From positions 180 to 56,003 of the forward strand of contig NZ_AXAC01000033.1 in assembly GCF_000472665.1 (NCBI RefSeq): DNA of 55,824 nucleotides, read 5' to 3'. Below, piece after piece: positions 13,838-49,753 of the stretch. The stretch's first letter is position 1. Each line of letters opens with the position of its first letter. The notes under the pieces are model-generated. The model saw nothing but the letters and a program-made list of their open reading frames with translations, had not been told where the DNA came from and ran no database searches. This DNA is from Acetobacterium malicum subsp. dehalogenans DSM 11527. GTDB lineage: Bacteria; Bacillota; Clostridia; Eubacteriales; Eubacteriaceae. The translations under genes were made by a program, and so were the position numbers.

Positions 13838-13865
13838 AGAAAAAAACAGCCACGAATGACTGTTT
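13838..13865 (-). terminator. Host terminator of the tRNA-Leu/Gly/Arg operon, displaced by the prophage
   Basis: Minus-strand hairpin AAACAG / CTGTTT followed by an uninterrupted T-run. It lies 11 nt outside attL. In the unoccupied chromosome it would follow the tRNA-Arg CCA by about 14 nt, so it is most simply that operon's own terminator. Confidence 0.75.
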
Positions 13866-13875
13866 AAGCACGTTT

Positions 13876-13888
13876 ATGGTACGCCCAG
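13876..13888. repeat. attL core, 13 bp
   Basis: ATGGTACGCCCAG, identical to 49378-49390. On the minus strand it equals the tRNA-Arg 3' end, including most of the acceptor strand and CCA. Host sequence lies to the left and prophage to the right. Confidence 0.85.
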
Positions 13889-14037
13889 CCCGTACCCAGA
13901 CATATACGCAACCATAAAGCGCTAATAGTTTCATCGAAGTTAGATAATAACATACATTATTTTTAAAATCAAATTCTTGTTTTACATCATACCAAAAAGC
14001 CCCCACACCGTAAGGCCCTTTAATATAAGGTAGATTT

Positions 14038-14793
14038 TTAGTAATTCGTGATTATTACTTCTTTGTATTCTTTATCTTTCCCATCGTACCGTTCAAGCAG
14101 CGAATTTCTCCGGCTGACCTCAATCAGGTTGAAGCCCTGGTACAATTCCCGGACAAAATCATCATTGTTATAACTCAGTATAAACTTTCCTTTGATTTCT
14201 TTCAAGCAATCTCTTAATCTTATATGATCGACATCACCAAATCCGGTTTGATAATATTTTTCTGTGCCATGATAAGGCGGATCAAGATAGAAAAGCGCAC
14301 CGGGCCGATCATGAACTTTGATGATCCGTTCAAAGTCTCTGTTTTCAATCACCACGCCATTCAGCCGATCACTGATCTCGCTCAGATAGTCGGTGCTTTT
14401 ATGGAGGTTTTTCTTTGTCCCTCCATAGGTTTTTCTATCGGCACCATATGATGTTTTGATGATCATGAAATACCGCCCAGCTCGTTGGATGTCGGTTAAT
14501 CCTCGCATATCAAGTTGAGATTTGAAGTCGTCAAAAAACTCCCTAGAATTAAGAACTCCGGTGATTTCTTTTTTAACTTCATCCGGGTGAAACTTCACGC
14601 ATCGGAACAAATTGGCCAGCTGACCATCATAATCATTATAAATCTCCAGATCGGCATGCTTATCTTTTGCAAAGAGCACCCATCCGGCACCGCCAAAGAC
14701 TTCAATGTATCGATCAAAGTCCTTTGGAAACATATCAATTATTGTTTTTCTTAACAGGCGTTTCCCGCCAATCCATGGTATAAAACTATTCAT
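14038..14793 (-). CDS. DNA adenine methylase, Dam/D12 class (orphan)
   Basis: This 251-aa N6-adenine methyltransferase has WIGGKR at the N terminus, FGGAGWVLFA (SAM binding) and the catalytic DPPY at residues 171-174. There is no restriction endonuclease beside it. The start at 14793 has a consensus AGGAGG. It is the last phage gene before attL and has its own promoter and hairpin leader, a position typical of genes expressed from the prophage. Target sequence is unknown. Confidence 0.88.
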   Translation of the reverse strand: MNSFIPWIGGKRLLRKTIIDMFPKDFDRYIEVFGGAGWVLFAKDKHADLEIYNDYDGQLANLFRCVKFHPDEVKKEITGVLNSREFFDDFKSQLDMRGLTDIQRAGRYFMIIKTSYGADRKTYGGTKKNLHKSTDYLSEISDRLNGVVIENRDFERIIKVHDRPGALFYLDPPYHGTEKYYQTGFGDVDHIRLRDCLKEIKGKFILSYNNDDFVRELYQGFNLIEVSRRNSLLERYDGKDKEYKEVIITNY

Positions 14794-14816
14794 TTTTCCT
14801 CCTGAAAATAAAATAT

Positions 14817-14895
14817 GGCCACCCGAAAGTGGCCGTGAAACTTGCTTGACAAATTTTTGGTCAAGATCATTATACATCTATAAATAAACTGTCAA
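14817..14895 (-). promoter_or_regulatory. Promoter, operator-like repeat and leader hairpin of the dam-type gene
   Basis: -35 TTGACA (14890-14895) and -10 TATAAT (14869-14874) have a short 15-nt spacer. Just downstream an inverted repeat CTTGAC/GTCAAG (14845-14865) looks like an operator. A GGCCAC/GTGGCC hairpin (14817-14834) with an AT-rich tail follows and could act as an attenuator or as the terminator of the upstream lysis genes. Confidence 0.5.
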
Positions 14896-47897: not shown

Positions 47898-49541
47898 ATG
47901 AAGAAAATGAATGTAGTTGCATATGCCCGTTTTTCCAGCGATAACCAAAGAATTGAGAGTATTGATGCCCAGCTCCGGGCCATTAAAGAATTTTGTTTAA
48001 AAGAAAGTTATCAACTGGTCGATGTTTATACCGATGAAGTCCGATCCGGACTGTCGGACGAGCGCCCCGGTTTCTTAAGAATGATCGATGATGCCGAAAA
48101 GAATAAATTCCAGGCGATCATTGTTCATAAGCTGGATCGCTTCTCCCGGGACAGATATGATAGTGCCTTGTATAAGCGTAAACTGAAAAAATGCGGGGTT
48201 CGTCTCTTTTCAGTCCTGGAGCGTCTGGATGATAGCCCGGAAAGCATCATCCTTGAATCGGTTCTGGAAGGGATGGCAGAATATTACAGCGAGAACCTGG
48301 CCAGGGAAACCTTTAAGGGATTAAAAGAAAATGCCCTTCAGTGCCTCCACAACGGGGGAACGCCACCACTTGGGTATGATGTTAACCCCCAGTCTAAAAA
48401 GTACGAAATAAACGTATATGAAGCTGAAACCGTCCAGATTATCTACGACATGTATTTAAACGATCATGGCTACTTTGATATCATCCGGAGCTTAAATGCA
48501 GCCGGCCGTAAAACAAAGCGTGGTAAACCGTTCGGTAAAAACTCCATATATGAGCTTTTACGCAACGAAAAGTACACCGGGACATATATTTATAACCGCA
48601 TCGAAAACAGGCGTAAAAAAGGCAATAATTCCCACAATTTGAAGAGCGCCGATGACGTGATTAAAATAAAAGATGGTATGCCATGCATTATCGAACAAAA
48701 ACAATTTGTGAAGGTAAAAGAGAAGATGGAAAAAAATAGAAGAGCATCGGGAAGATATAAGAATAAATATGTTTATCCATTGTCCGGGTTAATTGTCTGC
48801 GGCCATTGCGGAGCATCATACTGCGGTGAGCGGCGCCGGGCAAAAGGTCATGATTATTTTTATTATATCTGCAGCAATAAAAAAAATAATGGCCAATGCA
48901 ATGCCAAAGACATCAGAAAAGATCATCTCGAAGAAATTGTAAAAAAAGTAATCGAAGCCCGGCTCTACACCTCAAGCGGAATTGCAGCAACGGCCAAAAT
49001 CGTAAGGGATTATGCAATCTCCAACAGCATGCAAAATTCAAGTAAGCTTTCAGCGTCTAAGATGCAGTATGAAAAGGTCAAAGATCAAATTGATCGGTTA
49101 ATTGATTCTATCATGGGTGGGATGTTTCATGAGTCGATGAAAGAGAAATTGACATCGCTGGAAGAGAAAAAGTCATGCATCGAAAAAGAAATCTACGCGT
49201 ATGAAAATACCATGGACGATAAAGTTCCGTCCCTGGACGAAATTAAATATTACATCGCCTGCGATAACCTCCGCACCATGGATGAGCTGGAGCTGAAGAA
49301 GTGTTTTCAAAAACACATAAAAAAAATCACCATCCGCGATGGTGATCATGTCCAGATTTCTCTGGTTGTGGATATAAATGGTACGCCCAGAGGGGCTCGA
49401 ACCCCCAACCTACTGGTTCGAAGCCAGGCACTCTATCCAATTGAGCTATGGGCGCACATAAGTAGATTAAAAAAGAATGACCAGAGTAATACTCAAGTCA
49501 TTTCAAATTTATTAAATTTTGGAGCGGAAGACGAGATTTGA
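47898..49541 (+). CDS. Large serine recombinase (integrase), reading across attR into host tRNA DNA
   Basis: 547 aa as read. Catalytic Ser13 in YARFSSDNQR, Arg-rich VHKLDRFSRDRYD, a recombinase domain, zinc ribbon LIVCGHCGASYCG...YYICSNKK and a coiled coil are all intact. Codons 494-497 fall in the att core. Residues 498-547 come from host DNA, namely the reverse strand of tRNA-Arg and beyond. In the excised circle the frame would continue into the left phage end and stop at 13923-13925, giving 509 aa. It should carry out integration and excision. Confidence 0.92.
   Translation: MKKMNVVAYARFSSDNQRIESIDAQLRAIKEFCLKESYQLVDVYTDEVRSGLSDERPGFLRMIDDAEKNKFQAIIVHKLDRFSRDRYDSALYKRKLKKCGVRLFSVLERLDDSPESIILESVLEGMAEYYSENLARETFKGLKENALQCLHNGGTPPLGYDVNPQSKKYEINVYEAETVQIIYDMYLNDHGYFDIIRSLNAAGRKTKRGKPFGKNSIYELLRNEKYTGTYIYNRIENRRKKGNNSHNLKSADDVIKIKDGMPCIIEQKQFVKVKEKMEKNRRASGRYKNKYVYPLSGLIVCGHCGASYCGERRRAKGHDYFYYICSNKKNNGQCNAKDIRKDHLEEIVKKVIEARLYTSSGIAATAKIVRDYAISNSMQNSSKLSASKMQYEKVKDQIDRLIDSIMGGMFHESMKEKLTSLEEKKSCIEKEIYAYENTMDDKVPSLDEIKYYIACDNLRTMDELELKKCFQKHIKKITIRDGDHVQISLVVDINGTPRGARTPNLLVRSQALYPIELWAHISRLKKNDQSNTQVISNLLNFGAEDEI
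49319..49346 (-). terminator. Terminator for the tRNA operon, embedded in the recombinase gene
   Basis: Minus strand ATCACCATC-GCG-GATGGTGAT followed by eight T. The stem starts 33 nt after the tRNA-Arg CCA. It lies on the phage side of attR and is coding on the plus strand (ITIRDGDHV of the recombinase). Confidence 0.85.
49378..49390. repeat. attR core, 13 bp
   Basis: ATGGTACGCCCAG, identical to attL at 13876-13888. It covers the CCA, the discriminator and the 3' acceptor strand of tRNA-Arg. Confidence 0.85.
49379..49455 (-). tRNA. tRNA-Arg (anticodon UCG), phage attachment gene
   Basis: Intact cloverleaf: acceptor GCGCCCA/TGGGCGT, anticodon loop CTTCGAA and encoded CCA. The 3' end is shared with the att core, so integration leaves a functional gene. 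It is the last of three tRNAs on one transcript. Confidence 0.96.
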
Positions 49542-49594
49542 ACTCGCGACCCTCGCCTTGGCAAGGCGATGCTCTACCACTGAGCCACTTCCGC
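49520..49594 (-). tRNA. tRNA-Gly (anticodon GCC)
   Basis: Acceptor GCGGAAG, anticodon loop TTGCCAA and encoded CCA. Middle gene of the Leu-Gly-Arg cluster. Confidence 0.96.
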
Positions 49595-49606
49595 TTATGA
49601 TATGAC

Positions 49607-49691
49607 TGGTGCGGATGAAGGGACTTGAACCCATACATCAATTGATACTAGATCCTAAGTCTAGCGCGTCTGCCAATTCCGCCACATCCGC
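49607..49691 (-). tRNA. tRNA-Leu (anticodon UAG)
   Basis: Class II tRNA with a long variable arm, acceptor GCGGATG, anticodon loop CTTAGGA and encoded CCA. First gene after the promoter at 49725-49753. Confidence 0.96.
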
Positions 49692-49724: not shown

Positions 49725-49753
49725 ATAATAACAAAACATATGGGTTTTGTCAA
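49725..49753 (-). promoter_or_regulatory. Promoter of the tRNA-Leu/Gly/Arg operon
   Basis: -35 TTGACA (49748-49753), 17 nt, -10 TATTAT (49725-49730), the same combination as the tuf/tRNA promoter at 893. It is 34 nt ahead of tRNA-Leu. Confidence 0.8.

Follow-up and report, generated by a model that had tools for sequence, protein, structure and literature searches.

Integrative elements are known to restore the tRNA or tmRNA gene that they enter, as described for tyrosine integrases in the Islander work (PMC4383910). In the elements presented there the 3' part of the target is restored by the end of the element, which results in a whole gene and a displaced fragment, and the same is found at the locus studied here. 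Unlike those tyrosine integrases, the serine integrases considered here bring a terminator inside the integrase reading frame. For the fis PICIs, the block of identity at the gene's end is described as able to reach into the rho-independent terminator of fis (PMC10111431). Those elements duplicate host sequence at a protein gene, whereas here an unrelated terminator lies antisense in the integrase gene; since the phage hairpin (type A) and the displaced host hairpin (type B) differ, the former is not a host-copied identity block.

In Streptococcus pyogenes a prophage at ssrA lies between the terminators T1 and T2, and read-through into phage DNA has been measured (PMC9951164). There, as here, the transcript of the entered gene is parted from a terminator. 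The outcome reported, read-through into the prophage, is the opposite of that proposed here and shows why a replacement terminator could matter. In the Dehalococcoides ssrA islands the gene of the CcrB-like serine recombinase DsiB adjoins ssrA at the element end (PMC3146451), which resembles our locus in having a serine recombinase gene beside the target gene at the end of the element. The word "terminator" has a count of 0 in the text of that paper, and no word beginning with "transcription" appears in its main text. Work on KplE1 intS holds the orientation of the integrase relative to the tRNA to be decisive for int regulation (PMC2951348); it concerns int promoters and autoregulation, and "terminator" occurs in it once, in the reference list.

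The rebuilding of target tRNAs by integrating elements is well known, while the ending of their transcripts has received little attention in the literature searched. In that literature we met with no integrase gene reported to contain an antisense terminator. Judging from sequence comparisons, we consider it highly probable that the antisense strand of the serine integrase gene described below carries a replacement terminator for the tRNA operon that its phage disrupts.

A prophage and two hairpins at a tRNA operon

The window (55,824 nt of Acetobacterium malicum subsp. dehalogenans DSM 11527, the whole stretch of DNA analysed) holds a 35.5-kb prophage bounded by two copies of the 13-bp core ATGGTACGCCCAG, a direct repeat at both ends with tRNA-Arg whole at one of them (Table 1). 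Its minus-strand late genes match terminase, portal, major head, tape measure and endolysin families. At its right end lies the gene of a large serine recombinase (LSR) with Resolvase N-terminal, Recombinase and zinc-ribbon domains, the reading frame of which continues across the attR core. Just past this end the Leu-Gly-Arg tRNA operon stands undamaged on the minus strand, and an Rfam search returned three tRNAs plus one sub-threshold match.

The LSR frame has two possible ends. The lysogen version is open across tRNA-Arg antisense (region 49378-49541), and an integrase produced in the lysogen would bear a long foreign tail. Continued from the core into phage DNA at attL (13876-13926), the frame ends at a TAA after 15 codons, the first of them GGT.

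Table 1. Positions of the features discussed, numbered from the first letter of the window.
Feature	Position	Strand	Remark
Displaced native (type-B) terminator of the tRNA operon	13844-13865	-	score 6.3, T-rich tail
attL core ATGGTACGCCCAG	13876-13888	no strand	sequence reading
Terminator-like site just after the last late gene (14038-14877)	14001-14015	-	candidate late-operon end before attL
LSR ORF as open in the lysogen	47898-49541	+	encoded by the phage as far as the attR core (49390)
Antisense intrinsic-terminator-like hairpin	49319-49347	-	within integrase codons KKITIRDGD
Small upstream hairpin CCAGA-GAAA-TCTGG	49352-49365	-	in five of six host type-A terminators with small changes
attR core ATGGTACGCCCAG	49378-49390	no strand	holds the last 12 nt of tRNA-Arg
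tRNA-Arg(TCG), target gene	49379-49455	-	
tRNA-Gly(GCC)	49520-49594	-	
tRNA-Leu(TAG)	49607-49691	-	first gene of the operon
Near-consensus sigma-70-type promoter TTGACA-17-TATTAT	49725-49753	-	upstream of the tRNA operon

The initial annotation of this DNA had placed the operon's own hairpin outside attL, which holds, at a distance of 11 nt from it, which does not: the displaced hairpin stands 10 nt outside the attL core. It had also claimed that integration parts the operon from this hairpin. Eight genomes of the same genus show the unsplit arrangement, with tRNA-Arg directly joined to the type-B hairpin, and because of this we regard the hairpin as truly displaced by integration. The native terminator is thus split off by the element, and a new one lies between the tRNA gene and the element body.

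This second hairpin begins 31 nt past the tRNA-Arg CCA on the minus strand. Its 9-bp stem (49326-49346, four of the nine pairs G-C) encloses a 3-nt loop (49335-49337; CGC, or GCG on the minus strand) and is accompanied by a T8 tract (49319-49326). The plus strand reads AAAAAAA-ATCACCATC-CGC-GATGGTGAT and the minus strand ATCACCATC-GCG-GATGGTGAT followed by T, with eight T running when the last base of the stem is included; the terminator scan lengthens the stem by one pair (49325-49347). A stable stem-loop followed directly by at least six T on the transcribed strand is the structure of an intrinsic terminator, and the hairpin has this form. The minus strand of 49319-49350 folds with -12.6 kcal/mol (z -4.4), and none of 200 shuffles was equally stable. 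The inverted repeat occurs once in the window, shuffles yielding 0.04 matches with up to three mismatches. A terminator scan of 4.8 kb gave ten terminator-like sites, this hairpin included, versus 4.3 in shuffles. Sequence, folding and terminator scan all confirm the earlier description of a minus-strand 9-bp stem with eight T inside recombinase codons. By a terminator score of the d'Aubenton-Carafa type, the antisense hairpin reaches 34.4 versus 6.3 for the displaced host terminator.

The codon basis of the hairpin is simple, ATC ACC ATC being the reverse complement of GAT GGT GAT, while two AAA lysine codons make up most of the T tract. One possibility is that this is a coding coincidence, in which the motif K-K-I-T-I-x-D-G-D happens to give an inverted repeat and an A run that do nothing on the opposite strand. 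The peptide KKITIRDGD does predispose the region to a hairpin, since 48 of 300 synonymous recodings of the window LSR score above 0, yet none of the 300 attains 34.4. We return to this possibility with the survey of related genes.

Only two close relatives of the LSR were found. L051, a metagenomic copy that is 99% identical, has the same hairpin and the same score. L006 (genome G002) is 61% identical and sited at a different tRNA-Arg (ACG). Its hairpin, TCACCATC-TTCCAG-GATGGTGA plus T8, scores 30.0; the loop codons differ from those of the window LSR and the right arm is displaced by one codon. The stem, the loss of which in close relatives the initial annotation had named as evidence against its proposal, is therefore kept in both. 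Conservation of the stem at synonymous sites, which it had put forward as a check, did not come out as significant against L006 alone: the stem has a run of six identical codons, a run of seven is seen at another place, and the same codons are used anyway for 134 of the 296 conserved residues. We dropped codon identity with L006 as a stand-alone proof for these reasons, and an unexceptional codon identity is also what coding coincidence would lead one to expect. A scan of genome contigs for the integrase gave only two distant loci, and a scan of viral contigs for the exact hairpin gave two records, both of this phage and already known from the integrase scan.

The locus behind tRNA-Arg in the genus

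Sixteen of 19 genomes of the genus were readable behind tRNA-Arg(TCG), this genome via its two halves (unreadable were G005, G008 and G010). The type-B hairpin is found in eight of the 16, as at attL of this genome, and a type-C hairpin in one (G011). In six (G001, G003, G004, G006, G012 and G014) a type-A element homologous to the phage hairpin stands directly behind tRNA-Arg. Its order in five of the six is CCA, [CT]CAGAG[AC]AATCTGG, TCACCAT..ATGGTGA and a T run, within about 65 nt. The copy of G001 is shorter and without the first hairpin; it could be convergent. The longer copies (G003, G004, G006, G012 and G014) also have the flanking hairpin in common. Since host genes come directly after the type-A element in five of the six genomes, those with a long enough locus (that of G006 is cut), the element is an ordinary operon end in these species.

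The six aligned rows have 14 pairs with 100% of cells paired, the structure being taken from one row. Two pairs changed on both sides, and 12 of 500 shuffles were as high. Variation among the rows is too small for covariation to serve as proof, and we dropped it as such. An RNA model was built from the phage copy and five host copies, with G014 left out. It reached at least 52 bits in seven of 67 genomes of the order, namely this prophage and the six hosts, G006 with a second copy, where the sequences used for building match by construction. The next best match was L006 with 38 bits, and matches at 27-36 bits were ordinary terminators of the GTCACC...GGTGAC type or chance places; the scan used strict filters, and weak matches may be missing from these counts. 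Because the model also finds ordinary terminators, the short stem taken by itself is a form that many terminators share.

The second copy in G006 (L122 on contig C134, L107 on contig C58) consists of a second tRNA-Arg 3' half, a type-A terminator and the start of the next host gene, and it joins unrelated DNA near the anticodon loop. This is perhaps another element in the same tRNA, within a mixed-strain assembly.

Read in the integrase phase up to the core, the copies of G006, G004 and G014 give KKITISDGDFIQIALDLNSNGAP, KKITIIDGDSSQIALIMFISGAP and KRITIIDGDSSQIALIMFISGAP, and the phage gives KKITIRDGDHVQISLVVDINGTP. These three genomes, G004 and G014 being close sisters, keep an open integrase-like frame of 23 codons, which by itself is weak evidence either way. 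G012 retains DRVQISLVVDINGTP after a frame shift of 1 nt in the loop, and the frame of G003 is also shifted. The L006 protein ends in KKITILEDGEIEIDLVVHINGVP, as the window LSR does, with different bases, and more distant LSRs finish in similar motifs. Because of this match of the L006 protein end, the host copies have the appearance of left-behind integrase sequence; most of them look like integrase fossils in which integrase-like codons are retained, and the transfer would have run from phage to host.

Another possibility is that type A is the ancestral operon terminator of the genus and was captured into the integrase end, with the same function in the lysogen. On the rpoB tree type A occurs on deeper branches and type B in the clade holding this genome, and type A may be old in hosts. 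However, the codons of the element belong to the LSR itself, as the like ending of L006 in different bases and the similar motifs of more distant LSRs indicate. The G012 copy is, moreover, nearer to the phage (57/64 identical) than to the other aligned host copies (50/64, 49/63, 47/64 and 35/47). As the rpoB of G012 is 78.7% identical to that of this genome, the closeness of its copy to the phage despite a distant rpoB favours at least one separate acquisition. We regard capture from a host as unlikely and prefer to read the type-A copies as derived from the integrase.

Antisense terminators among related serine recombinases

Related LSRs were collected in two batches. The first comprised 92 loci, of which 76 were kept after removal of those with no recognised ORF or a duplicate C-terminus; the second comprised 34 loci, scored in the same way, of which 23 were kept and 11 dropped (seven duplicates, four with no recognised ORF). 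The second batch was taken from related families and is not wholly independent of the first. An LSR was counted as tRNA-type if an opposite-strand tRNA or tmRNA had its 3' end near or inside the end of the ORF, and an antisense terminator was counted if the score exceeded 0 within 135 nt. There were 50 tRNA-type LSRs (23 at tRNA, 27 at tmRNA genes), with the 3' end of the RNA gene inside the ORF in 46. Antisense terminators were found in 29 of the 50 (21/39 in the first batch, 8/11 in the second), and 38 of the 50 scored above -10. In the same 135-nt search 21 of the 50 scored 0 or less and 12 scored -10 or less. The ssrA LSRs of this genus are among those with no good antisense terminator in 135 nt (L012, L016 and L017 at -10 or less, L007 at -9.7). 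Some of the LSRs that do not score above 0 may use Rho or a site beyond the 135-nt window.

Only three of 49 LSRs without an adjoining tRNA or tmRNA scored above 0 (L051, L133 and L203), and all three contigs break off 76 nt or less beyond the stop codon. L051 is the phage of this study, and L133 and L203 group with tRNA-type LSRs on the tree. Six further cut-off LSRs scored below 0 (L052, L054, L138, L209, L211 and L216). None of the 40 LSRs of this group that have 150 nt or more of sequence past the stop had an antisense terminator in the last codons.

These LSRs bear on the possibility that the hairpin serves to terminate the late operon of the phage itself in the circular genome and halts antisense entry into int, the benefit to the tRNA being a by-product. 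The late genes on the minus strand finish at attL and would converge with int in the circle. The same need would be expected in LSRs that are not of the tRNA type, but besides the absence from their last codons, antisense terminators occur in only 4 of 39 of them in the 250 nt after the stop, where sense terminators occur in 20 of 39. The phage also has its own terminator-like site behind the last late gene, and host copies still stand behind the tRNA in genomes that showed no such prophage at the site. Given how rare antisense terminators are behind these LSRs, and given the phage's own site, we consider a role in the phage circle improbable and retain the disrupted tRNA operon as the more fitting beneficiary.

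As a null for the family, 60 synonymous shuffles of each gene were made with the codons of that gene itself. Antisense terminators within the ORF were observed in 28 of 46 genes versus about 1.2 expected (first batch 20/36 versus 0.95, second batch 8/10 versus 0.23), so that the family, like the window LSR, exceeds what its protein code gives by chance. A sense-strand control and a gene-interior control each gave 1 of 46 (1/36 and 0/10 in the two batches). This excess, with varied motifs and positions, on one strand only and in tRNA-type LSRs only, leaves coding coincidence with a very small chance of being the explanation. The one case in the gene-interior control is L164, with a lone antisense terminator-like hairpin (score 21.1) in the part of the LSR that lies 200-335 nt inward of the tmRNA end. 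Sense-strand terminator-like hairpins were seen inside the LSR frame of L008 and L015, well before the stop (e.g. GGTCACC-TTTAA-GGTGGCC and a T run).

The sites of serine integrases are inverted repeats, and a palindrome near the crossover core could be part of the attP recognition site of the recombinase instead of an RNA signal. Such symmetry of the DNA would not account for T tracts on the antisense side only, which the sense-strand control makes plain. Attachment sites are also compact, while the distance of the hairpin from the tRNA end varies from 4 to 119 nt between LSRs. We give a recognition site scarcely any credence and continue to treat the hairpin as a candidate terminator. That its position differs between lineages suggests a repeated origin.

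Clustering and a quick tree included 94 of the 99 rows, five being dropped for having no N-terminal motif. By majority rule, 21/39, 10/24 and 7/12 tRNA-type clusters have a terminator at 70, 60 and 50% identity, compared to 0/24, 0/17 and 0/8 clusters of other LSRs. The label "tRNA-type with terminator" requires 17 changes on the tree, with at least nine changes forced by well-supported branches. In an independent-pairs test 3.2 of 12 pairs were informative on average and none spoke against the link (median p 0.25); the usable pairs being too few, we set this test aside as evidence.

Proposed function and its implications

The proposal of the initial annotation, that the strand opposite the recombinase codons provides a replacement terminator, is supported by the host copies, by L006, by the enrichment among LSRs and by the synonymous shuffles. 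Integration at the 3' end of tRNA-Arg takes the operon's own terminator 35.5 kb away, and the core shared with the incoming DNA restores the 3' end of the tRNA. With the position and polarity computed here, an intrinsic terminator would then be available on the minus strand 31 nt beyond, within the final codons that the phage contributes to the serine integrase. We infer that transcripts from the operon promoter would end at this hairpin in the cell and leave a short 3' trailer. A stop at this place would hold transcription of the tRNA operon out of int and, as the initial annotation proposed, might keep 3' processing of the tRNA normal and shield int from antisense RNA. In several species of the genus the integrase end appears to outlast the phage as a permanent operon terminator.

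The survey supports widening this claim to what may be a pattern among LSRs at tRNA and tmRNA genes; the initial annotation mentions neither this generality nor the host copies. The same solution is found at different places in many LSRs that face such genes, and on this ground integrase 3' ends seem to be selected for two codes, where selection would act through the host transcript. On balance we lean towards the general reading, with due reserve, that serine integrases entering tRNA and tmRNA genes carry an antisense terminator for the host gene, that this evolved many times, and that its fossils now end some tRNA operons.

If confirmed, this would be a repeated instance of the same DNA coding for protein on one strand and terminating host transcripts on the other, and it would help to explain why the lysogen is not harmed when serine integrases make use of essential tRNA and tmRNA genes. 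Such hairpins may also prove useful as a sequence mark for predicting the target sites of serine integrases, and they would represent a route by which pieces of phages become fixed regulatory parts of their hosts.
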